A stretch of 64,000 nt of DNA from Pseudoxanthomonas sp. SE1 (lineage in GTDB: Bacteria > Pseudomonadota > Gammaproteobacteria > Xanthomonadales > Xanthomonadaceae). The notes beneath the pieces are model-generated. The model saw only the letters and a program-made list of their open reading frames with translations. It searched no databases and was not told the origin of the DNA. Shown one piece after another: positions 26,660 to 46,290 of this stretch. Location of the stretch: NCBI RefSeq assembly GCF_029542205.1, contig NZ_CP113783.1, forward strand, positions 3,649,001-3,713,000. Direction: 5' to 3'. Within the stretch, counting starts at the first letter, position 1. Every line of letters begins with the position of its first letter. Made by a program: the position numbers and the translations under genes.

Positions 26660-26673
26660 TTGATCCCGGTCAA
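26660..26673. promoter_or_regulatory. FNR/Anr-type box upstream of sqr
   Basis: TTGATCCCGGTCAA matches TTGAT-N4-ATCAA at nine of ten positions. It ends 53 bp before the sqr ATG, and GATCAT (26695-26700) lies where a -10 element would be if the box is centred near -41. Confidence 0.7.
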
Positions 26674-26726
26674 TGGATGCGGCCACGCGCCGACGATCAT
26701 GGGTCATCACTCGGGAGGCACGCGTC

Positions 26727-28037
26727 ATGGCCAGATTCCTCATCCTCGGCGCCGGCCTGGCCGGCATGAGCGCGGCCTACGAATTGCGCAGCACCTTGGG
26801 CCCGAACCATCCCATCACGGTGATCGGCGATGGCGACCGGTTCAGCTTTACGCCTTCCAATCCGTGGCTGGCCGTGGGCTGGCGCGAAGCAGACGACTTC
26901 ACTCTGCCGGCTGCACCTCCCCTCAAGAACAAGGACATCGGCTTCACGCCTTCGCCAGCGGTGCACATCGACATCGCCGGGAACTGCGTGCGCACCGCCG
27001 ATGGTCTCTGGCACAGCTACGATTACCTGATCATCTGTACGGGGCCAAGACTGGCCTTCGAAGAAGTTCCCGGCATGGGGCCTGCACCGGGGTACACGCA
27101 GTCGATCTGTACGACCGAGCACGCCTCGCGGGCCTGGGAGGCCTACCAGCATTTCCTGGAAGATCCCGGCCCCATCGTGATCGGCGCGGTACAGGGTGCG
27201 AGCTGCTTCGGGCCGGCCTACGAGTTCGCGCTGATGCTCGAGACCGACCTGCGCCGGCGCAAGCTGCGCGACCGGGTGCCCATGTGCTTCGTCACCAGCG
27301 AGCCCTACGTCGGCCACCTGGGGCTGGGAGGCGTCGGCGATTCCAAGGGCATGCTGGAATCGGAGTTGCGCAAGCGGCACATCCGCTGGATCGACAACGC
27401 CCGGGTACGCGGCGTCCGTGAAACGGAGATGTCGGTGGAGGAAGTGGACGCGCACGGCGAACCGAAGAACGAGCACGTCCTGCCGTTCCGTTACGCGATG
27501 CTCCTGCCGGCCTTCAAGGGCGTAGATGCCGTCGCGGCCGTCGACGGGTTGTGCAACCCGCGCGGCTTCGTCCTGGTCGATCGCCACCAGCGCAGCGTCC
27601 GCCATCGCAACATCTTCGCCGCCGGCGTCTGCGTGGCCATTCCTCCGGTCGAAAGCACGCCGGTGCCCACCGGCGCGCCCAAGACCGGCTTCATGATCGA
27701 ATCGATGGTGACGACTCTGGTGCGCAACATCCAGGCCGAACTCGATGGCAAACCCGCCACGTTCGAGGGTACGTGGAATGCCGTCTGCCTGGCCGACATG
27801 GGGGATTCGGGCATCGCGTTCGTGGCCTTGCCGCAGATCCCGCCGCGCAACGTCACCTGGACGCGCGAGGGGCACTGGGTGCATCTGGCCAAGGTCGCCT
27901 TCGAGAAATACTTCCTGTTCAAGATGCGCCATGGCACCAGTGAGCCTGTCATCGAGAAATACGTCCTCGCCATGCTTGGGATCGAACGCTTGAAGCCACA
28001 CGCTGCTCCGGAGCATCCCAAGCGCAAATCGGGTTGA
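26727..28037 (+). CDS. sqr: Sulfide:quinone oxidoreductase
   Basis: The 436-residue flavoprotein starts with an FAD-binding Rossmann motif (FLILGAGLAGMSAAYEL). The three cysteines needed for sulfide oxidation are present: Cys128 (QSICTTEHA), Cys160 (GASCFGPAYEFA) and Cys354 (NAVCLADMGDSG). The quinone-site region IPPVESTPVPTGAPKTGFMIESM is well conserved. The enzyme passes electrons from sulfide to the quinone pool at the inner membrane, for energy or detoxification. The ATG at 26727 has GGGAGG ten bases upstream. An FNR/Anr-type box precedes it, and no other sulfur gene is nearby. Confidence 0.93.
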   Translation: MARFLILGAGLAGMSAAYELRSTLGPNHPITVIGDGDRFSFTPSNPWLAVGWREADDFTLPAAPPLKNKDIGFTPSPAVHIDIAGNCVRTADGLWHSYDYLIICTGPRLAFEEVPGMGPAPGYTQSICTTEHASRAWEAYQHFLEDPGPIVIGAVQGASCFGPAYEFALMLETDLRRRKLRDRVPMCFVTSEPYVGHLGLGGVGDSKGMLESELRKRHIRWIDNARVRGVRETEMSVEEVDAHGEPKNEHVLPFRYAMLLPAFKGVDAVAAVDGLCNPRGFVLVDRHQRSVRHRNIFAAGVCVAIPPVESTPVPTGAPKTGFMIESMVTTLVRNIQAELDGKPATFEGTWNAVCLADMGDSGIAFVALPQIPPRNVTWTREGHWVHLAKVAFEKYFLFKMRHGTSEPVIEKYVLAMLGIERLKPHAAPEHPKRKSG

Positions 28038-28180
28038 TCTTCGGACACCCGGGGCATGCCTGACGCAATCCAGTGTGCGATGGGTACGCCGGACTCGCAC
28101 CACGGCCTGCCGCGTACAGGCACGACAGGCTTCATCCGCGGGAGGCAGGACGGATTCGATCCCGGTATCGCGCTCCGGAA

Positions 28181-28651
28181 TCAGATGTCGCCCTTCTCGC
28201 TGGGGCGTGGGTTCCGCCGGCTGATCCTGAAATCGCTGATCGCGATCCCGATATCGAACCCCTCGCCTTTTCCCGTCAATACGAGGGATACCTTGCCTTT
28301 GCTCAGCACGCGCGCGGTGCCGGCCTTGACCACGCCGACATCTCCGCTCAATGCCAGGTAATGGCCCAACACATCATCGATCCTGGCCACATCGGTGAAC
28401 TTCCCCGTTCCGTCGGTGATCTTCCATTTCCCGGCCGTTATGCCGACACCATTCGCTCGAATCGCCACGGGAATGGACATGCCATCCTTGCAGGTGACAG
28501 TGCCCTCGCCCACGACACTGGCATACAGGGCCGACCATTCTTTCGAACTGAACTCGAGTGCGCAGCTCAGATCGCGCTCCGAGCCAACCGCGGAAGTCGC
28601 CCCCACCAGCAAGATTGCGGCAAGCAGGCATGTCGTCGCTGTCTTCTTCAT
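28181..28651 (-). CDS. Small exported protein of unknown function
   Basis: The 156-residue product has a signal peptide (MKKTATTCLLAAILLVGATSAVGS). The mature part of about 130 residues contains one likely disulfide (LSCALEF and VTCKDGM) and reads as beta-rich (TGKFTDVARIDDVLGHYLALSG, GKVSLVLTGKG). No family is recognised with certainty. AAGGAG lies eight bases before the ATG. An FNR/Anr-type box lies 75 bp upstream, so it belongs to the same putative regulon as sqr, with which it converges. Confidence 0.78.
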   Translation of the reverse strand: MKKTATTCLLAAILLVGATSAVGSERDLSCALEFSSKEWSALYASVVGEGTVTCKDGMSIPVAIRANGVGITAGKWKITDGTGKFTDVARIDDVLGHYLALSGDVGVVKAGTARVLSKGKVSLVLTGKGEGFDIGIAISDFRISRRNPRPSEKGDI

Positions 28652-28725
28652 GGCCCTACTCCTTGAGGTCGTAGTCCGCCGACATTGGCGTACCCGCACC
28701 TTAAGAAGCTTCCGTGGTGCTTCTC

Positions 28726-28739
28726 TTGATCCTGGTCAA
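28726..28739. promoter_or_regulatory. FNR/Anr-type box upstream of the small exported protein gene
   Basis: TTGATCCTGGTCAA matches the consensus at nine of ten positions, 75 bp before the minus-strand ATG at 28651. Confidence 0.68.
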
Positions 28740-28813
28740 CAAGCGGTGAGGCATCACCTCAAGGCCTTGCCCGACTCATGGTGCGGATGCGCAGGCGCTT
28801 CATCGCAGTGTTC

Positions 28814-28827
28814 TTGATGGGGATCAA
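28814..28827. promoter_or_regulatory. FNR/Anr-type box in the divergent region
   Basis: TTGATGGGGATCAA is a perfect TTGAT-N4-ATCAA. It lies 56 bp before a small open frame at 28884 and about 370 bp before the P-type ATPase gene, and 88 bp from the box for the divergent gene. Confidence 0.72.
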
Positions 28828-28883
28828 GAACGGAACACAAGTCGGACGATAGGCTCAGGATCCATGGCTGGCAGGAACTTCGC

Positions 28884-28997
28884 ATGAAAAAAACCACCAT
28901 TACCCACCGCTGGTCGCGCATCGCAACAGTGCGATCTGCAGTCTCCGGTAGCGACCGGATCGTATGCACATGGGGATCGACGCGTCCGCACGCATGA
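28884..28997 (+). CDS. Possible small protein (37 residues) behind an FNR/Anr box
   Basis: An ATG with AGGAA eight bases upstream opens a frame starting MKKTTITHRWSRIATV and ending at TGA 28995-28997. It lies at the same distance from a perfect FNR/Anr box as other genes of the module. The peptide is basic and has no membrane segment. It may be a real small gene, a leader, or chance. The remaining stretch to the ATPase gene (28998-29194) shows nothing else I can support. Confidence 0.3.
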   Translation: MKKTTITHRWSRIATVRSAVSGSDRIVCTWGSTRPHA

Positions 28998-29194
28998 CAC
29001 CCGGATGGACTGCCAATGCCCTCGCTTCCAACTCCGACACACTCTGAGGCACGCGTCATCGGTATGGGAACGATACCGCCCCGGTCTCGGGTTCTACACG
29101 ACCATCTCGCTGCGCCCTGGTTATCTGCCGCATGCGGCGGCGACACAATGCGGGCAGCGCGACCTTGCGTCCGCGCTCCGACGAGGCCGCGCCG

Positions 29195-31693
29195 ATGGTT
29201 ACCGGGCCCGTGAATACCGCAGGCTCGGCGGCGTCATACTCACGACCCGGGCAGACGATGCCCGCTGGCCTGAGCTCCGCCGATGCGAGACGCAAACTCG
29301 AGGAAAATGGCCCCAACCTGATGCCGCGAGCCGAAGGTCGCAGCAGCCTGCGCATCGCCGCGGGGGTCATCCGGGAACCCATGCTGGCCTTGCTCGTTGC
29401 GGCCGCAGCGATCTACCTGGTGCTGGGAGATCTTCCCGAGGCATCGGTTCTGGCCGTTTCGGTTCTGCTCGTGATCGGGCTGGCCTTCTATCAGGAATAC
29501 AGGTCAGAACGTGCGCTGGACGCGCTTCGCGACCTGAGCAGTCCCCGCGCGCGAGTGCGTCGCGACGGTGAGAGCGTGCTGCTTCCTGCGCAAGACATCG
29601 TCGTCGGCGACATTCTGTTGATGGCGGAAGGAGACCGGGTGATTGCGGACGCCCGTCTGCTGCCCACAGGCGATGGACATGTCTCTGAGCTTGAACTGGA
29701 TGAGTCAATGCTGACAGGCGAGTCCATGCCGGTACGTCGCGCCGCAGGGTCTGCATCAACAGACAGGATCCATGCTGGAACGCTTGTCCTGAGCGGACAC
29801 GCGCTGGCGGAAGTCGTCGCCACTGGTGCCCGCAGCGCCATCGGTCGCATCGGCGTGGCGCTGGGCAGCGTGCGCACTCCGCCTACCCCATTGCAGCGGC
29901 AGATACGACATGCGATCACCGTTTTCGCGTTGCTCGCGCTCGTCGTCAGCGCCAGCGTAGTCATCCTCCATTTTTCGGTGCATGGCGATTGGCTGCAGGC
30001 CGCCCTCGCGGGCATCACGCTGGCGATGGCCAATATCCCGGAGGAATTTCCGGTCGTGCTTTCGGTGTTCCTGACCCTCGGTGCATGGCGCATGGCCCGG
30101 CATCAGGCATTGGTCCGTCGCCCGCCCGCGATCGAAGCCCTTGGCGCGGTGACCGTGCTGTGTACGGACAAGACCGGGACCCTGACCGAGAACCGCATGG
30201 CCGTGGCGGAACTGTTGACGCCTGAGGGACACATCATGCTGCCCGTGCCGCTTCCGCCGCATGCGCAGAGCCTGATCGAATGCGGCGACGCCGCGAGTGC
30301 GGACGATCCGGTCGACCCCATGGAGCGCGCTTTGCGGACCGCGGTGGGCGACCGCCCTTCAGCCGCGCGCCCACTTGGCGCGCAGCGCGTGCGGGAGTAT
30401 CCCTTGATGCGACCATTGCCCGTGGTCGGCCACGCGTGGCGCCCTTCTCTGGACCGGCCGGATGTCAACGTCTACTGCAAAGGTGCGCCGGAAACCGTGG
30501 CCGCCCTGTGCGAGTTGCAACCTGACCAACGTGCCGGACTGCTCGCCGGCGCGGCATCCATGGCACGGCGCGGCCTGCGTGTGCTTGCTGTTGCGACCGC
30601 CACCGGGCTTGAGGCCGCCCCAGCGACGTTGCAGGACTGTCCGCTGCAATGGCGGGGACTGATCGGCTTCGCCGATCCTCTGCGCGATGGCGTCCCGGAG
30701 GCGATAAGGGAGGCACTCGCTGCAGGGGTGCGCGTGGTGATGTTGACAGGCGACCATCCAGAGACCGCCCGCGCGATCGCCGCACAGGCGGGCATCTGCG
30801 GCGAGGCCAACATCTTCGCCCGGGTGAAGCCCGAGCAGAAACTGGCCATGGTCGACGAACTCCGCCAGGCCGGTCATGTTGTTGCCATGACCGGGGATGG
30901 CGTCAATGATGCGCCGGCACTCGCGGCGGCACACGTTGGCATCGCCATGGGGAAGCGGGGTACCGAGGTGGCCCGGGAAGCCGCTTCCATCGTGCTGCTT
31001 GACGACAACTTCGTCACCATCATCCGCGCGATCAGGAATGGACGCGTCATCTACGACAACATCGTCAGAGCCGTGCGCTACATCCTGTCGGTCCACGTAC
31101 CGATCACCGGGCTCGCCCTATTGCCGCTGTTGCTGGGTGATCCGCTCGTGCTGCTGCCCCTGCACGTGGTGTTCCTTGAGTTGATCATCGATCCGGCCTC
31201 CACGCTGGTGTTCGAACAGGAGCCTGGCGTCCATGATGTGATGCACCGTCCGCCCCGGGACCCCTCGCACCACCTGCTCGGCACCCGTTTGCTGTTCGAA
31301 AGCTTCGCGCAGGGGTTGATCGCCTTGCTTGCCGTGAGCGTCGTCTACATGCTGGGGCGCAGTAGCGGGCTCGCGGCGGCGCAGAATGGTGCGCTCGCCT
31401 TCATCGCTCTGGTGATGGGCAACCTTTCGCTCATCGTGGCCAACCGGACACTTCATGGCCGGAAGGCATGGTGGCGCCGGCGGAATCCGACATTCTGGTC
31501 CATCGTCCTCGCCGCTTCCGTCCTGACGGGCGTGGCGACGCAGGTGCGCAGCGTGTCGGGCTGGTCAGGATTCGAATCCCCGCCCGTGCCATTGACACTG
31601 GTCGCTGTTCTGTTGCCGCCCGTGCTCCTGTTCGTCGCTGACGGCATCGCAAGGACGATGGGATCGAGGCCACCGGCATCCCCGCATCGATGA
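29195..31693 (+). CDS. P-type cation-transporting ATPase
   Basis: The 832-residue protein has all P-type ATPase parts: an N-terminal cation ATPase domain (GLSSADARRKLEENGPN), the actuator LTGES, the phosphorylated Asp325 in CTDKTGTLTEN, the nucleotide-binding CKGAPE, LTGDHPETA, and TGDGVNDAPAL. The fourth membrane helix reads ANIPEEFPVV, like Ca2+-type pumps rather than the CPC of heavy-metal pumps. There is no metal-binding domain. The ion is not certain. An ATG at 29132 would give a longer start; I prefer 29195, which has GAGG upstream. It lies in the FNR/Anr-box module upstream of the stress protein gene. Confidence 0.9.
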   Translation: MVTGPVNTAGSAASYSRPGQTMPAGLSSADARRKLEENGPNLMPRAEGRSSLRIAAGVIREPMLALLVAAAAIYLVLGDLPEASVLAVSVLLVIGLAFYQEYRSERALDALRDLSSPRARVRRDGESVLLPAQDIVVGDILLMAEGDRVIADARLLPTGDGHVSELELDESMLTGESMPVRRAAGSASTDRIHAGTLVLSGHALAEVVATGARSAIGRIGVALGSVRTPPTPLQRQIRHAITVFALLALVVSASVVILHFSVHGDWLQAALAGITLAMANIPEEFPVVLSVFLTLGAWRMARHQALVRRPPAIEALGAVTVLCTDKTGTLTENRMAVAELLTPEGHIMLPVPLPPHAQSLIECGDAASADDPVDPMERALRTAVGDRPSAARPLGAQRVREYPLMRPLPVVGHAWRPSLDRPDVNVYCKGAPETVAALCELQPDQRAGLLAGAASMARRGLRVLAVATATGLEAAPATLQDCPLQWRGLIGFADPLRDGVPEAIREALAAGVRVVMLTGDHPETARAIAAQAGICGEANIFARVKPEQKLAMVDELRQAGHVVAMTGDGVNDAPALAAAHVGIAMGKRGTEVAREAASIVLLDDNFVTIIRAIRNGRVIYDNIVRAVRYILSVHVPITGLALLPLLLGDPLVLLPLHVVFLELIIDPASTLVFEQEPGVHDVMHRPPRDPSHHLLGTRLLFESFAQGLIALLAVSVVYMLGRSSGLAAAQNGALAFIALVMGNLSLIVANRTLHGRKAWWRRRNPTFWSIVLAASVLTGVATQVRSVSGWSGFESPPVPLTLVAVLLPPVLLFVADGIARTMGSRPPASPHR

Positions 31694-31720
31694 GGTGCGA
31701 GTTCCTCGACACCATCGCTG

Positions 31721-31734
31721 TTGATCCAGGTCAA
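31721..31734. promoter_or_regulatory. FNR/Anr-type box upstream of the universal stress protein gene
   Basis: TTGATCCAGGTCAA matches the consensus at nine of ten positions and ends 55 bp before the ATG at 31790. Confidence 0.7.
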
Positions 31735-31789
31735 TACGCAGCCTTGGCTCGTGGACGACTGTACGCACAGCCCACCCGAGGATCCCGCC

Positions 31790-32635
31790 ATGATCAAAGA
31801 CATCTTTCTTCCCATGACCGCGACGCCCGGCGACGATGACGCGCTCACGCACGCCATCGCGATGGCGTCGCGATTCCAGGCCCACCTGACCGTGCTGGAA
31901 CCCGTCAGCCTCCCCCAGCCCACCATCGATCCATGGGGACTCACGCCTGAACCGAGCATGCTCGCCATCTACGATGAGCTGCGGGAGACCGGGAACCGCA
32001 ACGCAGCCAAGCTCCGGACCCGCCTGGAGAAGGAGGGGATCTCATGGGAGGTTCGCCTCGAAGAATCGATGCTCCAGGAACCGAGCCATCTTGCAGCTCT
32101 CCAGGCCCGTTACGCCGACCTGTCTGTCGTGGGCGTCGCGAATCCGGACAACGAGCCGTCCCGCATGGCCCAAAGGTACTTTGAAGCGCTGTTGTTCGAA
32201 AGTGGGCGACCGGTACTGATGGTGCCCTCCCATGCCGCGATTCAGTCCGCAGCGCAGCACGTCGTCGTCGCCTGGCATCCTTCGCAAGAAGCCGCCAGGG
32301 CCGTGAACGATGCGCTCCCCCTGATGTCAGCGGCGGCATCGGTCGACGTGGTCCGTATAAGGGAGCGCCCGGGGGAAGCGGAGGGCGAAGAGGACCCCGA
32401 CCTCCGGGCCATCAGCCTTCATCTCGCCCGCCACGACCTCGATGTCAACATGGTGAGCAAGCCCCTGATCGTCGAGTCGGTCGCTCTGACGCTGCTACGG
32501 CATTGCCGGGAGTCGGGCGCGCAGCTTCTGGTGGCGGGGGGCTACGGGCATTCGCGTGCTCGCGAATGGTTGCTGGGTGGCGCGACACGCACCCTGTTGC
32601 GGGCGGCGCATCTTCCTGTCCTCTTCGCGCATTGA
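31790..32635 (+). CDS. Tandem universal stress protein
   Basis: The 281-residue protein consists of two UspA-like domains. The first (about 1-145) begins MIKDIFLPMTATPGDDDALTHA. The second ends with the nucleotide-binding signature GGYGHSRAREWLLGGATRTLL, which suggests ATP binding there. Such double-domain proteins are induced by oxygen limitation in other proteobacteria. GAGG lies nine bases upstream of the ATG at 31790, and an FNR/Anr box sits upstream. The gene converges with a GNAT gene, with a strong hairpin between. Confidence 0.9.
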   Translation: MIKDIFLPMTATPGDDDALTHAIAMASRFQAHLTVLEPVSLPQPTIDPWGLTPEPSMLAIYDELRETGNRNAAKLRTRLEKEGISWEVRLEESMLQEPSHLAALQARYADLSVVGVANPDNEPSRMAQRYFEALLFESGRPVLMVPSHAAIQSAAQHVVVAWHPSQEAARAVNDALPLMSAAASVDVVRIRERPGEAEGEEDPDLRAISLHLARHDLDVNMVSKPLIVESVALTLLRHCRESGAQLLVAGGYGHSRAREWLLGGATRTLLRAAHLPVLFAH

Positions 32636-32676
32636 CCATGAGGGAGGTTGCAGCGTGCGCGCGGAGGCAGGAACGC

Positions 32677-32704
32677 CGCGCCAGCCGGTGCATCGGCTGG
32701 CGCG
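32677..32704. terminator. Hairpin between convergent usp and GNAT genes
   Basis: CGCGCCAGCC and its complement form a perfect 10-bp stem around an 8-nt loop. No T tract follows on either strand, so it may slow polymerase or protect mRNA ends rather than act as a textbook terminator. Confidence 0.5.
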
Positions 32705-32736
32705 ACGGATATCCTCTGCCCGCTCGCAGCGTGAGT

Positions 32737-33282
32737 CTACAGTCGCAATTCGTGGATGACTTGCGAGGCGTCATCCGGGTCGGGACGCGTATCGAAACCC
32801 AGACCGCGGACAAGATCGTGCATCGACGCATTGTCGGCAAGATCCATGGAATAGATCGTCTTCATGCCGTTGGCTCGTGCAACTTCGATCAGGCGCTGCA
32901 TCAACACCGTCCCCAGTCCCTTGTGCTGCCATGCATCGGCTACGGTCACCGCGCACTCGCACCGCAAGCTGCCGGCGCCAGCGCTGTAGCGGGCGACGCC
33001 GAGCATGCAACCGTCGCCGCGCCCGGCCTCGATGGCCACCAGCGCGGCTTCGCGTGATCGATCCAGGACAGTGAGCTGAGACAGGAGGTTCTCGCTGGGA
33101 TGCAGCACCCCACCGAGGAAGCGGTAGTGCTTGGCTTGATTGGAAAGGCACTCGATGAATTCACGCTCAGCCTCGCGGTCCTGGGGTCGGATATGCCGCA
33201 CGAGGACGCGATGGCCATCGCGCAAGGTTTCGTACCAGACATCCGACTCTTTCGATGCGTCGGGCAGCGTCGTATCGTTCAT
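32737..33282 (-). CDS. GNAT family N-acetyltransferase
   Basis: The 181-residue protein has the GNAT fold with the acetyl-CoA loop HKGLGTVLMQRLIEVA near residue 125 and a preceding strand with CECAVTVADAWQ. It resembles the acetyltransferase domain of Pat-type protein acetylases without their CoA-ligase part, so a protein lysine target is possible but unproven. The ATG at 33282 has AAAGGA nine bases upstream. It is transcribed from the side of the BON gene, 150 bp away, with a strong hairpin between. Only a half FNR/Anr site (ATCAA, 33314-33318) is seen. Confidence 0.87.
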   Translation of the reverse strand: MNDTTLPDASKESDVWYETLRDGHRVLVRHIRPQDREAEREFIECLSNQAKHYRFLGGVLHPSENLLSQLTVLDRSREAALVAIEAGRGDGCMLGVARYSAGAGSLRCECAVTVADAWQHKGLGTVLMQRLIEVARANGMKTIYSMDLADNASMHDLVRGLGFDTRPDPDDASQVIHELRL

Positions 33283-33374
33283 GAGAAGCGTCCTTTGCAT
33301 GCATGTGCGTTGTAGATCAATGAAGATGACCGAGCATCCCCCGGATCTCCCCAGGGCCCTGGCGCAAAGCAGCA

Positions 33375-33401
33375 TGCTCCGGTCCGATCAGGACCGGAGC
33401 A
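33375..33401. repeat. Perfect hairpin between BON and GNAT genes
   Basis: TGCTCCGGTCC and GGACCGGAGCA form an 11-bp stem around GATCA. It would lie in an mRNA reading from the BON gene into the GNAT gene and could end or process it; there is no T tract. Confidence 0.6.
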
Positions 33402-33431
33402 CAGTGCTCATGCGGCATCCCGGACATGTGC

Positions 33432-34073
33432 TCAAGTGATCACCAGGTGATCGATCACATCCTTGACGCCCGGTGTCGACCACACCGCCCGTTCGACGGC
33501 CACCCGCTCGCTCCACGTATCGACTTTGCCGTCCAGCGTCACCGTGTCGCCGTTCTTCACCGCGATACGGATCTGCTTGGCTTCCACGTCGGCGCTGCGC
33601 CTCAATGCATCCTCGATCCGCTGCTGGACCACCGGGACCTGCACTGTGGGCTTGATGACGATGTTGTTGGATATGCCCGTCACGCCCCTCAATGAGCGAA
33701 GTGCACTCTCCGCACCAGTGCGCTGATATTGCCAGTCGACTTTGCCTTCAAGCGTGATCCACCCCTTGTTCACTGTCAGGTGGATGTCCGATGGCACGGT
33801 GCTGCTCCACTTGAGCACGCCCAAGGCCCGCTTGGCGATTTCCTCGTCGCTGGTATCGCTTGCGAAACGGACTTCGATATTCTGAGCGATCGCCTTGACG
33901 CCCTTGACCCGCCAGGCCGCACGTTCGGCGCTCAGCTTCTGATAGTACGTGGGCACGTGTCCCGTCAGTGTGATCACGCCATCCTCTGCCAATACTCCGA
34001 CATCGGCGGAGTCGAGGCTCGGCTCGAAGTCGAGCTCATCGATGACTGCCTGACGCAGCTGCTTGTCATTCAT
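33432..34073 (-). CDS. Cytoplasmic protein with three BON domains
   Basis: The 213-residue protein contains three BON domains in a row (about residues 1-70, 75-143 and 147-213), each with the pattern of a helix, then GVITLTGHV, GWITLEGKV or TVTLDGKV, and a closing GV-x-x-V/I. BON domains bind phospholipid or stabilise envelope proteins, but no signal peptide or lipobox is present, so this copy stays in the cytoplasm. GAGGA lies before the ATG, and an FNR/Anr-type box is 68 bp upstream. Similar three-BON proteins occur in anaerobic stress clusters next to Usp and Hsp20. Confidence 0.92.
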   Translation of the reverse strand: MNDKQLRQAVIDELDFEPSLDSADVGVLAEDGVITLTGHVPTYYQKLSAERAAWRVKGVKAIAQNIEVRFASDTSDEEIAKRALGVLKWSSTVPSDIHLTVNKGWITLEGKVDWQYQRTGAESALRSLRGVTGISNNIVIKPTVQVPVVQQRIEDALRRSADVEAKQIRIAVKNGDTVTLDGKVDTWSERVAVERAVWSTPGVKDVIDHLVIT

Positions 34074-34140
34074 GTTCTTATCCTCTTGTCCGCAGGATCC
34101 GCGGCGTCATCCAGTTGACCGCCACGCGCGCGCGCGCGAC

Positions 34141-34154
34141 TTGACCTGGATCAA
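34141..34154. promoter_or_regulatory. FNR/Anr-type box upstream of the BON gene
   Basis: TTGACCTGGATCAA matches the consensus at nine of ten positions, 68 bp before the minus-strand ATG at 34073. It could also act on the divergent regulator gene. Confidence 0.68.
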
Positions 34155-34234
34155 CAACCTGTCGAGTCGCTCGGATGACAAGCGGCAACGGTCAGGCGGG
34201 CGATGTCCTTCAAGTGGGCTGTCCCGGTCTCCGC

Positions 34235-34261
34235 CTGTTACACACTGTTACAGGCCGTAAC
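34235..34261. promoter_or_regulatory. CTGTTACA direct repeats with GTTAC palindrome upstream of the regulator
   Basis: CTGTTACA occurs twice, exactly 10 bp apart (34235 and 34245), and the second copy forms the palindrome GTTAC-AGGCC-GTAAC. The helical spacing suggests a protein-binding site for the regulator gene at 34330. Confidence 0.45.
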
Positions 34262-34329
34262 GGGATGGATGTCGGCGAGCGGGGAAAGTGTCATAGCGTG
34301 AGTGTCCCACCCCCACCAGGACTGCCGTG

Positions 34330-35043
34330 ATGCTGGATACTCGTGACTTCGCGGAATCCTGCACGCCCGCATGGATTCCGGACCTTGGCCAACCGCCGGT
34401 CGGCCATGTCGATCTGCAGAGCATCGACGCGTTGCTGCACAGGGCGCCCCTCCAGCGTCGCCTGGTACAGGCCCGGCGACGGCTTTTCCGCGCCGGTCAG
34501 CCATGCCGTGCCCTGTACCTCGTGCATGCGGGCCTGTTCAAGACCTGTGTCCTCAGCGAGGATGGCTGGGAACGGGTCACCGGATTCCATCTTCGCGGTG
34601 CGCTGCTGGGAATCGACTCCTTCGACATGCCGGTGCATGCCTGCGATGCGGTCGCGCTGGATACGAGCGAGGTCTGGGAGCTGCCATTGTCGTGGCTGAA
34701 GGCAGAGGGACGCGACCTGTTGCCTCATGTCACGGGGATGCTTGCGGCAGAGATACGGCGGGACGGGCGCTGGATGCTGGCGATGGGACGCTTCAGTGCC
34801 GAGCAGCGCGTGGGCGCATTCCTGCTGGACCTGGCGGCGCGATTGCACATGCTGGGCTTCAGTGCCCAGCACCTGTTGCTGCGCATGACGCGGGCTGACC
34901 TGGGCAGCTTCCTGTCGCTTCAGCTTGAAACCGTCACACGCGCATTGTCCCGCCTCGATGCCCAGGGCCTCATCTCGGTTGATCGACGCGACATCCTCAT
35001 CCGGGATGAAACCGGGCTGAGGTTGGTGCTGGCCCGTTCGTAG
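34330..35043 (+). CDS. Crp/Fnr family regulator of FNR/DNR type without Fe-S cysteines
   Basis: The 237-residue protein has an N-terminal cyclic-nucleotide-like domain, a dimerisation helix (about 130-165) and a C-terminal winged helix. The recognition helix reads LETVTRALSRL, with the Glu and Arg that FNR uses to read TTGAT. The FNR cluster ligands are missing: only Cys12 is in the N-terminal region and the fourth position aligns with Trp (TSEVWELPL). It should therefore sense something other than O2 through a [4Fe-4S] cluster, as DNR and FixK do. AGGA lies about eleven bases before the ATG. It is the obvious candidate to act at the seven boxes around it. Confidence 0.88.
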   Translation: MLDTRDFAESCTPAWIPDLGQPPVGHVDLQSIDALLHRAPLQRRLVQARRRLFRAGQPCRALYLVHAGLFKTCVLSEDGWERVTGFHLRGALLGIDSFDMPVHACDAVALDTSEVWELPLSWLKAEGRDLLPHVTGMLAAEIRRDGRWMLAMGRFSAEQRVGAFLLDLAARLHMLGFSAQHLLLRMTRADLGSFLSLQLETVTRALSRLDAQGLISVDRRDILIRDETGLRLVLARS

Positions 35044-35205
35044 GGCTCAGCAGATGGGGCCAGGTGACGGTACAGGCACGCCTTGTCAGGTTGCCCTGTT
35101 TGTGCCGTTCATCGGGTCGATATCGATAGTGTTTGCATCTTTGGTGAAATCGCCGTATCGGGATAGGTGTGTCCCTCCCCGTTTCGTCCAGAGGCCTCTC
35201 CTACA

Positions 35206-35958
35206 ATGCCGGACCGCATCTCCCATTGCGACGATGCGCTTGGAAGCCTCCGGCCGCGCGTACTGATGGTGGATGACGATGCCGAGATCACGCGGATGTT
35301 GTCGCGCTACCTGGAGAATCATGGCCTGACGGTCACTGTCGCTGCGAGCGGCGCCCGATTTCGCGCACTGCTCGAAACGACTGAAGTCGATGTGATCCTG
35401 CTGGACCTGGGGCTGCCGGACACGGATGGACTCGGCCTGGTCCGTGAACTTCGCCACTATTGGCAGGGGCCCTTGATCATCGTCAGTGGACGCGGTGAAT
35501 CGGTGGACCGCGTGGTCGGCCTTGAACTAGGCGCGGACGACTACATCAGCAAGCCCTTCGACCTGAGAGAACTGCTCGCCCGCATCCGTTCCGTGCTGCG
35601 ACGTACCCCGCCGCCCGGGCACCTGGCGCCGCATGCGAAGAGCGGATTCGAGTTCTTCGGCCTTCGCCTGGATACGTCGGCTCGCCGCCTGATCGATCGT
35701 GACGGTTGTGACATCGAGCTCACTACCGGCGAGTTCGAACTGCTCTTCGCCTTGCTGAGGAGGCCCAACCAGGTGCTGAGCCGCGACCAGCTGATGAACG
35801 CGACGCACGGACGGGAAACGGGACCGTTCGATCGGGCCATCGACATGCAGGTCAACCGGCTGCGTCGCAAGATCGAGGTAGACCCTGCACACCCACGGAT
35901 CATCAAGTCGATCCGCGGCGTCGGCTACATGCTCGCCGCTCCAGCGCCCGCTGGTTAG
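35206..35958 (+). CDS. OmpR-family response regulator
   Basis: The 250-residue protein has a receiver domain (VLMVDDDAE; phosphoacceptor in DVILLDLGLPD; Lys in ISKPFDL) and a winged-helix DNA-binding domain ending IKSIRGVGYML. The closest types are TctD/OmpR-like regulators. The ATG at 35206 lies in GGCCTCTCCTACAATGCC without a strong ribosome binding site. The histidine kinase gene begins nine bases after its stop, so they form a two-component pair in the middle of the stress module. Targets cannot be deduced. Confidence 0.93.
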   Translation: MPDRISHCDDALGSLRPRVLMVDDDAEITRMLSRYLENHGLTVTVAASGARFRALLETTEVDVILLDLGLPDTDGLGLVRELRHYWQGPLIIVSGRGESVDRVVGLELGADDYISKPFDLRELLARIRSVLRRTPPPGHLAPHAKSGFEFFGLRLDTSARRLIDRDGCDIELTTGEFELLFALLRRPNQVLSRDQLMNATHGRETGPFDRAIDMQVNRLRRKIEVDPAHPRIIKSIRGVGYMLAAPAPAG

Positions 35959-35966
35959 GGCCCCTC

Positions 35967-37970
35967 TTGTTTCCCCAGCTGTTCCACGCTGTACCCGATG
36001 CACTCCTCGTCGTGGATGAAACCGGCCGCATCTCGATCGCGAACAGGCAGGCCGAGCGGCTGTTCGGTTACGCCGAAGACGGTTTGACGGGGCTGGGCGT
36101 GGAGCAGTTGATCCCCGAAGATGCGCGCGAGCGGCATCGCTCCCATCGATGCGGCTACATGCGAATGCCACGGATCCGGCCCATGGGAGGCGCGGGCATG
36201 GCGTTGATCGGCCAGCGGCGCGATGGCGCACAGTTCCCGGTCGAGATCGCGCTCAGTCCGCTGCAGACCGATGAAGGGCCACGCTATCTGGCTTCGATCC
36301 GCGACATCTCCGAAACCCAGCGCGCGAGGGAGGCACTGGTCCGTGCCCGCCACGATGCACTTGTGGCGCGCATCGGTCAGGAGGCCGTCGAGCTCGCCGA
36401 TGGTGATGAACTCATCGCGCGACTGCCCCAGCTGCTGACCGCCGCTCTTGGCGCCGATGCGGTCGCGATCGCCTTCTTCAGGGAGAAGCCACTGGTGGAG
36501 GTACAGGCCTGCTTCGGTGCGCCCGCGCTTTCGCGCGGACTGTTCGAGGTTCCCGAGCACTGGCAGCAGTTGAGCAGCAGCCGTCCCCGGGTGATCGACG
36601 ATCTGCAGACCGCAATGTTGCCATTGCCGCTGCTGGGAGGCGACAAAGGCAGCGGTGCCGTCGTCCCGTTGATCGACCGCGACCACCCCATGGGCGTGAT
36701 CGTGGTGCGCTCGGCCGGGCAACGCGCGCTCGATCACGATGCCATGCACTTGTTGCGCTCGATCGCGAACCTGGTCGCCGGCATGATCCAGCGCCGTCGG
36801 ACGGAGGAGCAGCTCGCCCATGCCCAGCGGCTGGATGCGATCGGGCAATTGACCGGCGGCATCGCCCATGATTTCAATAATCTGCTGACGGTGATGTCGG
36901 GCAGCCTGCAACTGCTGGCAGACCGGTCCTCGGGTGATCCGGAAAGTGCCGACCTGATTGCCAGCGCATCACGTTCCGCTTGTCGTGGCGCTGAGCTGAC
37001 ACGGAAGCTGCTGGCATTCGCCCGTCGCCAAAGGCTCAGTCCGAGTGCCGTGTCGCCACCCCGCCTGCTTGAGGACCTGGAGCACATGTTGCGGCGGACA
37101 CTGGGTGATTCCATCCGGCTGATCGTCGAGTGTCCGCCAACGATCCCGGCCGTCCATGCCGACGCCGCGCAATTGGATTCGGCATTGCTCAACCTGGTGC
37201 TCAATGCGCGGGATGCCATGCCGCAGGGTGGTGAAATCCGCCTGAGCGCCCGGCAGGCGGAGCTCGAAGTCGAAACGGATTCGCGAGTCACGGTGCGCCA
37301 TCCTTGCATCATGTTCTCCGTCACCGATACTGGCCACGGCATGACGACAGAGACAATGGCGCGTGCGGTCGAACCATTCTTCACCACCAAGCCCGCCGGC
37401 CGCGGTAGCGGACTGGGACTCAGCATGGTGTACGGGTTTGCGGAACAGAGTGGCGGCAAGCTGCGGATCGACAGCCGCCTGGGGCACGGTACCCGGGTCG
37501 TTTTGCTCCTCCCCGCGGCACCCGTTGCCATCGCCACCAGCAACGAGTCCCCTCGACTCACCCAGGAAGGCCACGGTGAGCTCGTCCTGGTGGTCGAGGA
37601 CGAACCCGCGGTTCGCGACATCGCTCTGGCCTTTCTCAGATCACTGGGCTACCGCGCGAGCGCAGTGGGTTCCGCCACAGATGCCCTGGAGCATCTTTCA
37701 GGGAATGCGGAGGTGCGGCTGCTGTTCACCGACGTCATGCTCGGTGGCGGCATGAACGGCGTCGAGCTGGCCAAGGCGGCCAAGGCCAGCCATCCGGGCC
37801 TGGGCATCCTGCTCACGTCGGGATACGAGGATGTCCTGGCGCTGGACCCTATCGAAGCACCGACCTTGGCGCCGCTGCGCAAGCCCTACAGCCGCGAGGA
37901 TCTCGCTGCGGCATTGCACCGGAGCCTCAGCGACGCGTGCAGGCAAAAGAGGATTGACGTGGATCAATAA
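35967..37970 (+). CDS. PAS-GAF hybrid sensor histidine kinase
   Basis: The 667-residue soluble kinase has an N-terminal PAS domain (about 1-115), a GAF-like domain (about 130-280), the dimerisation domain with [16 protein letters not shown] (His phosphoacceptor), an ATPase domain ([28 protein letters not shown]) and a C-terminal receiver ([19 protein letters not shown]). No membrane helix is present, so it senses a cytoplasmic signal. A TTG start is used, nine bases after the regulator's stop. No haem or flavin motif is obvious. Its last codons contain an FNR/Anr box for the next gene. Confidence 0.92.
37954..37967. promoter_or_regulatory. FNR/Anr-type box at the 3' end of the kinase gene
   Basis: TTGACGTGGATCAA matches the consensus at nine of ten positions. 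It encodes the last residues of the kinase and ends 56 bp before the ATG at 38024. Confidence 0.65.
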
Positions 37971-38023
37971 GGCCGAGCGCCCTGGCCACCAGAATGCATG
38001 CACAGGTTCGGGGGGCAACGCTC

Positions 38024-38965
38024 ATGGTACCGGTCACCAGATTCACGTCTTTGGCTGCCGTTGAGGCGTGGGATTCGCGCTACCGCTGGCGGCAGGACGG
38101 GAGATCCCGCGATGCCTCCATCGACGCGACATGGCGACGGGTAGCCGATGCGGTCGCGGCGGCGGAAGGTTCAATGGCTCCACTGTGGGCTCACCGCTTC
38201 GTGACGGCGTTCAACCGATGGCAGTTGCTGCCGGACGAACGCCTGCTGCGGGTCGCGGGAACGGACGTGGCATACCGGGGCCTATCGGATCCGGCCGCTG
38301 CGATCAATGTCGCCGCCTTCGTCAGCGGCGACGGGATGGGCATGCCCTGCTTCGACCGGAGCCGGCTGGTCGAGACTGCGGCGCTCGCCACGCGCTTTCT
38401 GGACGACGCCCTCGTTTGTTATGGGAGTGACAATGTCGGCAGTCTCCGTGTGGGCCTCGTCGGCCTGGCAGATGCATTCCGGATGCTGGAGATGCCCTAT
38501 GGTTCGGAAGCGGCACGGCAGTTCGCGATGACCGTGGCCACGCTGCTGGCCGAAGGCTCTCTTCGCGGCAACATCGACTTGGCGGCCGAGCGTGGAGGCA
38601 TGAATGGACCTTCGGCGCGCGACTCGTTCGCAGATCGCATGAGGCGCAGGAGAATGCCTGCGCCGCTCATTGCCGAAGTGCTGAAGCAGGGCGTCCGCCA
38701 TCCCCAGGTCACTGCCCTGGATCCCCATCCCGGCCTGGCCCTGCTGGCCAATGATGCAGCCGATGCACTCGACCCGCTTCCGGGGGACGCCATGCGTGGC
38801 TACGACGAACAGGGGAACTGCACGCTCGTCGCACATGCCAGGCTGATCGCCGCCCTACAGCCCTGCATTGATCAGGAGATCCGGCCTTCGCACACCCGAC
38901 TCGACGGAGGCCCCGCATGGATACCGGCGTCTCGCGGTCAGGACCGCACCATCACGCGCCGGTGA
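38024..38965 (+). CDS. Shortened class II ribonucleotide-reductase-like protein, catalytic core missing
   Basis: The 313-residue protein matches two separate parts of NrdJ-type reductases. Residues about 10-80 (AWDSRYRWRQDG, IDATWRRVADAVAAAEG, LLPDERLLRVAGT) correspond to the N-terminal domain. From about residue 93 (AAINVAAFV, ATRFLDDAL, RVGLVGLADAFRMLEMPYGS, LLANDAADALDPL) it follows the region after the catalytic loop. The intervening barrel with the active-site Cys and Asn-Cys-Glu residues is absent, and the later motifs are altered. It is intact as a reading frame, has GGGGGG before the ATG, and lies behind an FNR/Anr box, so it is probably expressed with a non-reductase role. Confidence 0.75.
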   Translation: MVPVTRFTSLAAVEAWDSRYRWRQDGRSRDASIDATWRRVADAVAAAEGSMAPLWAHRFVTAFNRWQLLPDERLLRVAGTDVAYRGLSDPAAAINVAAFVSGDGMGMPCFDRSRLVETAALATRFLDDALVCYGSDNVGSLRVGLVGLADAFRMLEMPYGSEAARQFAMTVATLLAEGSLRGNIDLAAERGGMNGPSARDSFADRMRRRRMPAPLIAEVLKQGVRHPQVTALDPHPGLALLANDAADALDPLPGDAMRGYDEQGNCTLVAHARLIAALQPCIDQEIRPSHTRLDGGPAWIPASRGQDRTITRR

Positions 38966-39206
38966 TCCGTCCCGGGGAACGGGAATGCCTCATTCCAGTG
39001 CAGCAATGACTCCGACGGCACCGCTCGCTGGTTGTTGCAGCATGTCGCCGTGTCTCCCTCAACGCACTTGGGTCCGTGGCTTCTGGCTCCGATCGGATGC
39101 ATCGCGGCCCCAGTGCGCGCGCCATCCCCAACGATAGCCAGCCCTAGCATCGCCTGAGGTCGCGACTGCCTGTCGAAGCGGTCACGCGGATGATCGTGGC
39201 CATTCC

Positions 39207-39449
39207 CTAAGGACGGCCGCGCGACAGGGCGCCTGCCACCAGCATGAGTGCGGCAAACCCACCGAGGATGATCCAGGGGTGCTCACCGATATAGCGGCGC
39301 ACCCGGTTCAGCGCCGACAGCATGGGGGCATCCGCCGGAGCATGCGCGGCCTTGGGTTCGGTGGTCGCCTCGCCAGCGCTGCGGGTTTCGAGGCCGGATC
39401 GAAGCGACCCTTGCCGTGTGCTGTCGGGACGGGTTCGGGTGCGTTGCAT
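39207..39449 (-). CDS. Small membrane protein, DUF883/YqjD-like C-terminus
   Basis: The 80-residue protein has a basic, hydrophilic first half and one C-terminal membrane helix (HPWIILGGFAALMLVAGALSRG), the layout of ElaB/YqjD-type proteins that tether ribosomes to the membrane in stationary phase. Likeness is limited to the helix, so the call is tentative. GGAGAA lies just before the ATG. It follows hsp20 by 60 bp on the same strand and is likely cotranscribed. The 240 bp after it, up to the reductase-like gene, contain no gene I can support. Confidence 0.7.
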   Translation of the reverse strand: MQRTRTRPDSTRQGSLRSGLETRSAGEATTEPKAAHAPADAPMLSALNRVRRYIGEHPWIILGGFAALMLVAGALSRGRP

Positions 39450-39509
39450 CGCCGTTCTCCATTCCAGTGCCCCTGCCGGGATTCAGCAGTGCAGGGGCCG
39501 TGAGCAGCG

Positions 39510-39956
39510 TCAGTTGACCGCCAACTTGCGTGAACCGTTGCCTGCCTTCTTGGGCAGCCTCAGGCTCAGCACGCCACCGTCGTAGTGGGCCTCCGCTTTG
39601 GTGTCGTCGATTTCCGAGGGCAACGTGAAGGAGCGGTAGGCCTGGCCTTCGTAGTGCTCGGTGTAGAGCGGCTTCTCATCCTCACTCTTCTTCTCGCGAG
39701 CGAACTCGGCGCTGACGGTAACCTGATTGCCATCGATCGAGATGTCGATGTCATCCTTCCTGACGCCCGGCACGTCGATCCTGACGAGGTATCCGCTGTC
39801 GTCCTCGGACACGCTCATCCGCATCTCCAGCATGTTCTCATCCTGGCGCGTCAGTAAGCCATGCGTACTGACGTTGCGCAGGAGGTCATTGAATTCCGGG
39901 AACACGCTAAAGCGGTTGTTCTGGCGAAACGGGTTCCAGCGGGTAGGCATTGTCAT
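39510..39956 (-). CDS. Small heat shock protein (Hsp20/alpha-crystallin)
   Basis: The 148-residue protein has the alpha-crystallin domain (YLVRIDVPGVRKDDIDISID through YRSFTLPSEID) and the final GVLSLRLPKK motif. It is an ATP-independent holdase of the long-arm IbpA-unlike class, common in anaerobic stress clusters. The ATG at 39956 has GGAGAG six bases upstream; an ATG two codons later is possible. An FNR/Anr-type box lies 76 bp upstream, with CATAGT placed as a possible -10. Confidence 0.95.
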   Translation of the reverse strand: MTMPTRWNPFRQNNRFSVFPEFNDLLRNVSTHGLLTRQDENMLEMRMSVSEDDSGYLVRIDVPGVRKDDIDISIDGNQVTVSAEFAREKKSEDEKPLYTEHYEGQAYRSFTLPSEIDDTKAEAHYDGGVLSLRLPKKAGNGSRKLAVN

Positions 39957-40031
39957 GGGACTCTCCAGCAAAGGTGGCGGCCCGCCATGAACCGCCGAGC
40001 CGCCACTATGCGCAGCGGCTGCGAGAAGGTC

Positions 40032-40045
40032 TTGATCTCGGTCAA
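40032..40045. promoter_or_regulatory. FNR/Anr-type box upstream of hsp20
   Basis: TTGATCTCGGTCAA matches the consensus at nine of ten positions, 76 bp before the minus-strand ATG. It marks the right edge of the stress module. Confidence 0.7.
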
Positions 40046-40185: not shown

Positions 40186-41211
40186 TCAGCCCTCTCTCAG
40201 CGCACGCGCGGCGGAATCGTGGTGCTGCTCCCGCAGGAGCTGGTTCACTTCGGTCAACGACGGCATGGCGGCGAATGCGCCCTTGCGTGTCACCGCCAAC
40301 GCGCCCACCGCGGCGCCGAAGCGGATGGCGTCTGCGAGGCCTTCCTGATGCTCGCAGAAGGCATGGAAACCCCGGCCATCGCCACCCAGCTCCCCGAGGC
40401 GGAACAGCAATCCGCCAACGAAGGCATCACCGGCCGCCGTGGTATCGCGCGCCTCGACGCGGAAACTCGGTGCGTGTCCGGATGTCTGCCGTGTGTACCA
40501 CCGGATCTGCGCCGCCCCATCCGTGATGATCAGCCATTGCGCCTTGCCTTCGAAGATGCGCGCCCGCACGGCCGCCTCGCCCTCGGCGCCGCCACCCAGC
40601 GGCTGCGCCAGGTAATCCAGTTCCTCCTGCGAGAGCTTGACCAGGTCGGCGGCCGACAACGCCTGCCACAAGCGGGGGGCCGGATCCGTGTCCTGCGGCC
40701 ACAACGCCGGACGCAGGTTGAGATCCAGGCTGACCATCGCCCCGGCATCCCGCGCACGCGCCATGCCGTCCAGGGTCGCATCGGCGATGGCGGCTTCGGT
40801 CAGGCTGTTGGAACAGACATGGAAACTGCCGGTGCCACCGAAGCAGGCAGGCACGAAATGCGCGCTGCGGAACAGCAGGTCCGCGGCGGGCGGACGGTAG
40901 AAACTGAAGCTGCGCTCGCCCCGTTCGTCCAGCGCCACGAACGCCAATGCGGTCTTGGCGGCGCTGGTACGCACGATGCAATCCGTCGCCACGCCGGCCG
41001 CGATGAAACTCTGCAGCAGGAAGTCGCCGAACATGTCGTTGCCCAGCATGCCGGCGAAATGCGTGTCCGCGCCCAGCCTCGCTGCGGCCACGGCCACGTT
41101 GGCGGGCGCACCGCCGGCGTACTGGAGGAACGCACGCGGCGTGTCGGATGTGGCCGGCGGCTGGGCCAGCAGGTCGATCAGGGCCTCGCCGAAGCAGACG
41201 ATCTTCGACAT
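40186..41211 (-). CDS. Fructokinase (PfkB family)
   Basis: The 341-residue sugar kinase has the two PfkB signatures: GGAPANVAVAAARLGAD near residue 33 and DTTAAGDAFVGGLLF near 262, the latter with the catalytic Asp. It starts MSKIVCFGEALIDLLA, as bacterial fructokinases do, with AGGGAG eight bases upstream. In this locus it would phosphorylate the fructose made from mannose by the AGE-family isomerase. Its ATG lies three bases after the stop of the MFS importer gene, so they are one operon. Confidence 0.92.
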   Translation of the reverse strand: MSKIVCFGEALIDLLAQPPATSDTPRAFLQYAGGAPANVAVAAARLGADTHFAGMLGNDMFGDFLLQSFIAAGVATDCIVRTSAAKTALAFVALDERGERSFSFYRPPAADLLFRSAHFVPACFGGTGSFHVCSNSLTEAAIADATLDGMARARDAGAMVSLDLNLRPALWPQDTDPAPRLWQALSAADLVKLSQEELDYLAQPLGGGAEGEAAVRARIFEGKAQWLIITDGAAQIRWYTRQTSGHAPSFRVEARDTTAAGDAFVGGLLFRLGELGGDGRGFHAFCEHQEGLADAIRFGAAVGALAVTRKGAFAAMPSLTEVNQLLREQHHDSAARALREG

Positions 41212-41214
41212 GGC

Positions 41215-42528: not shown

Positions 42529-42579
42529 GCGGTCGTAGACCTCAACGGGCGAATGGGGAAAAAGAAGAAAGGGGAAGCG

Positions 42580-43737: not shown

Positions 43738-43738
43738 C

Positions 43739-43750
43739 TGGATCGATCCA
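43739..43750. promoter_or_regulatory. LacI-type operator at the lacI start
   Basis: TGGATCGATCCA is a perfect palindrome whose GGAT lies in the place of the ribosome binding site. It is the inner part of the operator TTGGATCGATCCAA found at other promoters in the locus. Confidence 0.72.
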
Positions 43751-43813
43751 TTCCCGTGGAGGCGCCCAGCGTAAACCATGGCGCCAGCACGCAAACCGGG
43801 ACGGCACGCTGAC

Positions 43814-46261: not shown

Positions 46262-46290
46262 GCGCTCACAGGTCATCGCAGTTCACCGAA

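Follow-up and report, generated by a model that had tools for sequence, protein, structure and literature searches.

A putative hFixL-FxkR-FixK-type low-oxygen circuit in a stress-gene module of Pseudoxanthomonas sp. SE1

What controls a 13-kb cluster of stress genes in Pseudoxanthomonas sp. SE1 whose promoters carry seven boxes of the FNR/Anr type, TTGAT-N4-ATCAA or a one-mismatch form of it? The cluster, called the module below, occupies positions 26660 to 40045 of a stretch of 64,000 nucleotides (contig NZ_CP113783.1, positions 3,649,001 to 3,713,000), which is the window of this study and to which the coordinates refer; the L and G numbers are our labels for loci and genomes. The answer that we propose, on evidence that is computational throughout and with a probability of about three in four, is that the module forms a self-contained low-oxygen response circuit of the hFixL-FxkR-FixK design, in which a hybrid kinase and a response regulator would control a regulator of the FNR family devoid of iron-sulfur (Fe-S) cysteines. 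The boxes, the putative operator (K-box) of the regulator gene, the conserved spacings, the protein families and their conservation are seen in the sequences themselves.

The boxes and their conservation

The original prediction, made from this DNA alone, had listed seven boxes, and all seven are found, that at 28814 being perfect and the six others carrying one mismatch. In the following list, the gap is the distance from the box to the ATG, and the plus numbers indicate where a -10-like hexamer (NANNNT) starts after the box.

26660-26673, + strand: anaerobox TTGATCCCGGTCAA of the SQR-like promoter; gap 53 bp; GATCAT at +22
28726-28739, - strand: anaerobox of the exported protein; gap 74 bp; TAAGGT at +23
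28814-28827, + strand: perfect anaerobox TTGATGGGGATCAA; TAGGCT at +23 on the + strand; candidate targets, the P-type ATPase or a small open frame (28884-28997)
31721-31734, + strand: anaerobox TTGATCCAGGTCAA of usp; gap 55 bp
34141-34154, - strand: anaerobox of BON, TTGATCCAGGTCAA on the - strand; gap 67 bp; no NANNNT at +22/23
37954-37967, + strand: anaerobox of the gene derived from ribonucleotide reductase (RNR-like); gap 56 bp; inside the last codons of the kinase gene
40032-40045, - strand: anaerobox of hsp20; gap 75 bp; CATAGT at +22

For the six named genes the gaps, which depend on the start codons that we chose, thus run from 53 to 75 bp, within the 50-80 bp announced. The perfect site does lie 56 bp ahead of a small open frame, as had been stated, but that frame of 37 aa is unsupported as a gene, and it was rejected as the target of the box: in the locus L157 the box is kept before the ATPase gene and the stretch of the frame is heavily gapped. 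The claim that no comparable set exists elsewhere in the window was borne out, since a single additional one-mismatch site was found, at 23687-23700, within a bacterioferritin-like coding frame. Adjoining it, the small frame 23875-24087 resembles a bacterioferritin-associated [2Fe-2S] protein (both names being read from the sequence).

The whole genome (one contig of 4,229,371 bp) contains 92 sites with at most one mismatch, and the presence of seven of them in 13.4 kb represents a clear enrichment of the module over the background (Poisson, 1.6e-8). When the exact form TTGAYN4RTCAA is considered, the module holds 7 of the 32 sites of the genome (Poisson, 3.7e-12). In a shuffle control of the window at two mismatches or fewer, 24 sites were observed for 8.0 ± 2.8 expected.

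The conservation of the boxes was followed in the relatives of the regulator gene. The scan confirmed 282 loci, the best 80 of which were taken; 36 of these come from Lysobacteraceae or their close kin (L043-L078), a set including one Dokdonella and several metagenome-assembled genomes named only to phylum, class or order. Three genomes are counted under two labels (L057 is G033, L058 is G026 and L078 is G035) and L065, L066 and L070 are near copies, so that the locus counts are not fully independent. These 36 loci (623 kb) contain 137 copies of TTGAY-N4-RTCAA, any other spacer length from 0 to 12 giving 0 to 3 copies; among 60 permutations of the half-site letters the median is 0 and the next best scores are 44 and 43, the permutation with 43 having sites in common with the true one. 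Gene copies were scored when at least half of the protein was matched with at least 60 bits and when 300 bp upstream lay inside the locus. A box then precedes the genes for Usp (26/31), GNAT (13/15), BON (5/6), Hsp20 (7/11), the ATPase (4/7) and SQR (1/1). The RNR-like gene has one at 56-71 bp in 16 of 17 relatives, and among the genes scored in several copies its box is the most constant. A box is found before 10 of 32 relay genes, 23 of 39 regulator genes (Anr-like copies included) and none of 31 kinase genes, and neither of two farther relatives of the exported protein (L057, L058) has one within 330 bp.

The nearest relative, L157 (genome G014), retains the gene order and a box at every place from the SQR-like through the RNR-like gene. 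Its SQR-promoter box is identical, down to the 53-bp gap, but identity amounts to 91% over that entire region. The four other gaps retain their boxes at an overall identity of 37-59%, one value being lowered by an overhang; the place of the exported-protein box is retained within 47% identity, and boxes are also retained at the place of 28814, before the ATPase gene, and at BON.

Activator sites of class II, in the FNR/CRP family, are centred about -41.5 from the transcription start. Among 70 pairs of box and gene, drawn from 30 loci, 45 show a NANNNT hexamer beginning 22 or 23 nt downstream of the box, for 2.6 expected, and no other downstream offset exceeds 3 of 70. In the window, five of the six named promoters carry it, BON being the exception. 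If this hexamer is the -10 element, the centre of the box falls at about -41.5, which is the class II position.

The resident regulator, its operator and the relay

The elements that would connect the boxes to a signal lie together on the + strand.

34237-34252, + strand: K-box GTTACACACTGTTACA, predicted FxkR-type operator of the regulator gene; exact match and sole exact copy in the genome
34294-34299, + strand: -10-like TAGCGT of the regulator promoter, its first base 42 nt past the end of the K-box
34330-35043, + strand: FixK-like regulator of the FNR family, with an FNR-type recognition helix and no Fe-S cysteines
35206-35958, + strand: OmpR-type response regulator of the FxkR clade, from its similarity to FxkR9 and to an Ensifer protein and from its tree
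35967-37970, + strand: hybrid histidine kinase with FixL-type PAS, GAF, HisKA, HATPase and receiver regions

The gene at 34330 had been designated as the regulator, and its product, made of a cyclic-nucleotide-binding fold and a Crp-type helix-turn-helix, fits this role by its FNR-type recognition helix, in which E and R are invariant in 27 aligned homologs, with T or V before R. Against solved structures it matches FNR with 118 bits, FixK2 with 77 and DNR with 33. The N-terminal CxxC...C cluster is absent from the window protein and from the main regulator of all 36 loci, and the position of the fourth cysteine is never Cys in 37 relatives, L157 included (W in 30, I in 4, V in 2, L in 1); the cluster-bearing FNR proteins of the same loci (L047, L057, L058) are encoded by separate, Anr-like genes. 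Because the Fe-S cysteines are lacking, the protein is unlikely to sense oxygen as FNR does. At E<=1e-45 it occurs in 5 of 38 genomes of the genus, and Stenotrophomonas is among its relatives. The 105 regulator sequences were thinned by rule to 52, and in the resulting tree the Fe-S-less proteins stand in two places, one being rhizobial FixK and the other uniting Lysobacteraceae, their kin and Burkholderiales beside the Fe-S FNR of Betaproteobacteria; a single clade for them is worse by 51 log units and is rejected (approximately unbiased test, p=0.00015). So the regulator would function like FixK without being an orthologue of rhizobial FixK. In the same tree, a second FNR-like protein of the genome with a CxxC...C motif (G000:C1:3819823, L033) groups with rhizobial FixK.

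It is in the alignment of the BON-regulator gap with L157 that a direct repeat of GTTACA surfaced. According to two studies, GTTACA-N4-GTTACA is the operator for the induction of rhizobial fixK by FxkR (PMC7888657, PMC4999443), and gel-shift confirmation by others is cited in the second. The K-box is present in 11 of 35 testable loci as an exact copy, in 32 at one mismatch or fewer and in 34 at two or fewer; L060, which has no upstream sequence, is omitted from the count and L049 is the one locus without it. No other K-box at one mismatch or fewer exists on either strand across the 623 kb of the relatives' loci. Of the spacers 0 to 15, only two gave matches, 4 in 32 loci and 14 in 20 loci, the latter owing to a third repeat, and the next best of 180 permuted hexamers reached 6 loci. 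Of 36 K-box promoters, those of the window and of L157 included, 34 have a -10-like TAGNNT, scored as NANNNT, at a single constant offset. The end of the K-box is estimated near -54 and that of pRL9 fixK9a lies 62 nt before the published start, which is similar but not identical. Within the genus, the exact K-box is found in 4 of the 5 regulator-positive genomes and in 1 of the 33 others. This last copy, in G032 (L187), belongs to a tandem GTTACACGAG repeat whose 3-kb locus encodes no module protein, and it was rejected; another K-box, with one mismatch, lies in L089 (B. multivorans) at 5.5 kb from a regulator of the Fe-S type and was likewise set aside.

FxkR is a regulator of the OmpR family (PMC7769827). 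The response regulator of the module matches FxkR9 of pRL9 at 49% over 234 aa and the Ensifer protein at 56% over 229 aa. In a tree rooted on seven distant OmpR paralogs, 20 regulator-linked response regulators and FxkR form one clade (support 97/92), which is present in 98% of 200 bootstrap trees and spans rhizobial and betaproteobacterial members and those of Lysobacteraceae and kin. In the case of the kinase, the best solved-structure matches of the PAS region are FixL (E 3e-19); its His57, a histidine in 36 of 36 aligned homologs, aligns with the FixL histidine that we take to be the heme ligand. The kinase core and receiver match hFixL9 of pRL9 at 42% over 410 aa.

The regulator-kinase-relay trio is also found in five rhizobial plasmid loci, the relay of pRL9 lying a few genes away, and the K-boxes of the fixK genes of rhizobial plasmids are exact in L193, L194 and L195 and one mismatch off in L201 and L207. 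Furthermore, the Ensifer locus (L195) possesses Usp and BON genes, and two Variovorax plasmids (L196 and L206, the latter with no regulator in its incomplete gene table) associate relay and kinase with Usp and BON genes, which suggests that the circuit and the stress genes travel together. Four more plasmid relay matches (L202-L205) adjoin other kinases and have no fixK neighbour save a Crp/Fnr gene two genes off in L204.

The box at 37954 precedes a gene that often adjoins that of the regulator:

38024-38965, + strand: ribonucleotide-reductase-derived protein lacking the active-site region; PF00317 at 27.3 bits (cut-off 28) and positions 230-405 of PF02867

The original prediction spoke of a reductase-like gene, and its box and 56-bp gap hold; the gene itself encodes a fragment, and an identity as nitroreductase was rejected on the Pfam and NCBIfam domain matches. 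The N-terminal part of the protein resembles the all-alpha domain, with a score slightly below the Pfam cut-off, and is followed by barrel positions 230-405 of 523, as in part of the class II ribonucleotide reductase NrdJ (1xje). In contrast to NrdJ, barrel positions 1-229 and the conserved cysteines are absent: among 34 aligned members, no invariant or ≥90% column is Cys, and in one column 18 of the 34 have Cys and the window protein has Ser. The genome encodes two further, full-length reductase large subunits. The protein is likely, from its sequence, to be a conserved remnant with another role and not a reductase. The gene occurs in 5 of 37 genomes of the genus, which are the same five that possess the regulator, and in two other genomes of the order. 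Among 8000 candidates scored, at least 184 homologs were recognized, often adjoining the regulator, and G035 (L158, L159) has two regulator and RNR-like pairs, the second with no kinase or relay match in its 20 kb.

The proposed circuit and its alternatives

In the circuit that we propose, the triggering event would be a fall in oxygen, upon which the hybrid kinase (35967-37970), through its FixL-type heme PAS, would phosphorylate the OmpR-type response regulator (35206-35958). The latter would bind the K-box at 34237-34252 and switch on the gene of the Fe-S-less regulator (34330-35043), which would act as a functional FixK, binding the TTGAY-N4-RTCAA boxes at about -41.5 and activating the genes for the SQR-like oxidoreductase, the exported protein, Usp, BON (with GNAT), the RNR-like protein and Hsp20, and probably that for the ATPase. 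At lower oxygen these boxes would probably be read by a separate Fe-S Anr as well, so that the response would have two stages, like that of Rhizobium, whose FixK and FnrN have boxes in common and operate at distinct oxygen levels (PMC7888657). This two-stage use by FixK and Anr is our preferred reading, by analogy. Our inferences concern the heme and the sensing of oxygen, the phosphotransfer, the binding and activation steps, and how the work is shared with Anr. The idea of a single regulon responding to oxygen or nitric oxide (NO) had been put forward from the start: an FNR-family regulon is well supported by the conserved boxes, the class II -10 spacing and the co-occurrence of regulator and RNR-like gene, and oxygen is the likely signal, by way of the neighbouring FixL-like kinase and FxkR-type relay, which the original prediction had not noticed; nothing specific to NO was found.

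Several observations weigh against this circuit. With four rhizobial FixK proteins the regulator shares only 24-27% identity, and it stands outside their clade. The second match of FxkR9 in this genome reaches 213.8 bits, for 216.4 with the response regulator of the module; because these scores are almost equal, a reciprocal best hit was judged insufficient by itself, and the FxkR assignment is carried jointly by the clade, the K-box and the neighbouring genes. The FixL distal-arginine position is Met78 here and Q (22), M (8) or L (2) in 32 relatives; in three rhizobial hFixL sequences it is Arg. In most relatives the regulator gene is convergent with those of the kinase and relay, whereas in the window all three have the same direction. 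In the Luteimonas loci L067 and L068 the K-box accompanies regulator, kinase and relay, yet their 20 kb are free of anaeroboxes. A weaker -10-like signal exists upstream of the boxes as well, with up to 9 of 70 at one offset, and the regulator-linked betaproteobacterial loci L085, L091, L092, L119 and L196 have no K-box at one mismatch or fewer, L119 having one at two. Finally, the mixed form TTGAT-N4-GTCAA, counted on either strand, accounts for six of the seven module boxes and for 14 sites in the genome, these six included; a Fisher test gives no significant preference of the module for it relative to the remaining genome (p=0.083), and relatives use both letters about equally, so that a module-private form unread by Anr is unsupported.

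Could the boxes simply belong to a genome-wide Anr regulon, the regulator, kinase and relay having other targets and the clustering reflecting co-inherited stress genes? The genome does encode, at its position 3742098 (L032), an FNR protein with CSTCAFSQAC (CxxCx5C), which we term Anr. Several of the 15 perfect boxes outside the module lie near hemN, cytochrome oxidase, alcohol dehydrogenase, bacteriohemerythrin, OmpW-like and Usp genes (names read from the sequence), and a classical Anr regulon is probably present as well. Moreover, the Usp genes of G018 and G003 keep their boxes without the regulator at E<=1e-45, and one Usp gene of the regulator-positive G035 has no box in its locus, two further points against the proposed circuit. 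Because the boxes of G018 and G003 persist in this way, Anr probably also reads such boxes, those of the module among them. This explanation of the whole is nevertheless unlikely in our opinion: in 27 genomes, 124 of 556 boxes (22%) fall in the 547 kb around the regulator, that is in 0.5% of the sequence, at 56 times the density elsewhere; the five genomes of the genus with the regulator have between 20 and 37 boxes each, with a median of 32, where the 33 without it have a median of 15 (p=0.001), a surplus due in part to the module itself; and the regulator has kept the invariant E and R of an FNR-type helix.

DNR senses NO through heme, and the regulator of the module, which also lacks Fe-S cysteines and has DNR and FixK2 among its solved-structure matches, might on the same lines sense NO directly and govern a DNR-like regulon, perhaps through heme. 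We regard this as very improbable, since the DNR match is far below that of FNR, the K-box and the FixL-type kinase supply another signal, and no NO-handling family was found among the module proteins in the Pfam and NCBIfam scans. The overlap of the box at 37954 with the last codons of the kinase gene and the position of the site 23687 inside a coding frame could, on the other hand, evoke a functionless by-product of composition or coding sequence. The spacer and permutation controls, the conserved distances, the -10 spacing and the boxes kept in less conserved flanks contradict this idea, to which we give almost no credit. The low-oxygen circuit of hFixL-FxkR-FixK design is the reading that we prefer.

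The other genes, known systems and significance

The genes that this circuit would serve, together with one small frame, are the following.

26727-28037, + strand: SQR-like FAD/NAD(P) oxidoreductase; Pyr_redox_2; best NCBIfam match SQR type III, 78 bits for a cut-off of 525
28181-28651, - strand: small exported protein; relative at 72% in L157; no Pfam or NCBIfam match
29195-31693, + strand: P-type cation ATPase; E1-E2_ATPase and Cation_ATPase N and C domains; start uncertain, 29132 or 29195; below every substrate-specific NCBIfam cut-off
31790-32635, + strand: universal stress protein; Pfam Usp
32737-33300, - strand: GNAT acetyltransferase, 3' of BON on the same strand; Acetyltransf_1; below the NCBIfam cut-offs
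33432-34073, - strand: three-BON-domain protein; BON in three stretches
39207-39449, - strand: small open frame 3' of hsp20; similar 58-bit stretch in L157
39510-39956, - strand: Hsp20 small heat-shock protein; Hsp18/Hsp20-type NCBIfam matches, under the cut-offs

With scores under the cut-offs for the SQR-like and GNAT proteins, the sulfide oxidation and protein acetylation at first attributed to the module are not established. A second SQR-like frame elsewhere in the genome (L004, recognized by inspection of the sequence) has a perfect box inside its 3' end. Downstream of the module, at 40186-46276, lies an apparent sugar-use cluster, whose frames resemble a sugar kinase, an MFS transporter, a LacI-type regulator and a large secreted hydrolase.

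As described in PMC7888657 and PMC4999443, the hFixL-FxkR-FixK system of Rhizobium leguminosarum/etli and Sinorhizobium shares with the module a hybrid FixL-type kinase, a relay of the FxkR clade, the K-box, an Fe-S-less regulator of the FNR family, target boxes of the TTGAT-N4-ATCAA type and a coexisting Fe-S FNR. It differs in that the module resides in Lysobacteraceae and kin, which are Gammaproteobacteria, with a regulator of another FNR lineage, and in that the nearby targets are stress genes and not fixNOQP. The module kinase has a GAF region and lacks the N-terminal stretch of hFixL9 and of the Ensifer protein, a stretch that the S. medicae one lacks too. The lxa locus of Burkholderia (PMC6127331) likewise clusters Usp, Hsp20 and BON genes linked to low oxygen, and its proposed regulator is the CRP/FNR-family FixK homolog BCAM0049, the B. 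dolosa counterpart being under FixLJ (PMC5234846). The lxa locus, however, comprises about 50 genes with six Usp, where the module comprises about 12 with one Usp among the scanned proteins; its regulator lies outside the locus, its relay is of the FixJ type, and the portions available mention no RNR-like gene or K-box. As for the Fe-S regulons of Anr and FNR, they share the box family and the class II spacing, but the module regulator is without the Cys cluster.

The origin of the cascade has been placed in the ancestor of Rhizobiaceae by a study of Alphaproteobacteria (PMC4999443). In a partial search, limited to titles and the beginnings of abstracts, the literature on FxkR and hFixL concerned rhizobia, legume symbiosis or plant-related reviews, and an equally partial search naming Pseudoxanthomonas, Stenotrophomonas or Lysobacter returned no description of the module. 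Because the Fe-S-less regulators occupy two places in the tree and their union in one clade is rejected, the relay appears to be shared and the output regulator seemingly recruited twice. We are inclined to believe that the hFixL-FxkR relay with its K-box is a portable proteobacterial device and not a rhizobial invention, existing also in Gammaproteobacteria and, with an operator diverged or lost, in Betaproteobacteria. The FixK slot would have been filled at least twice by stripping the Fe-S sensor from different FNR lineages, oxygen sensing being moved to the kinase, and in Lysobacteraceae and kin the result would be a compact island of genes for survival in hypoxia, one of them encoding a catalytically dead remnant of ribonucleotide reductase.

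If this is true, a named oxygen-sensing cascade would extend to another class of bacteria, in which its regulator, operator and targets can be predicted. Could the conversion of an oxygen sensor into a relay have occurred repeatedly? The two lineages of Fe-S-less regulators would suggest it, and the module may then represent a candidate hypoxia-survival programme for soil- and plant-associated Lysobacteraceae.

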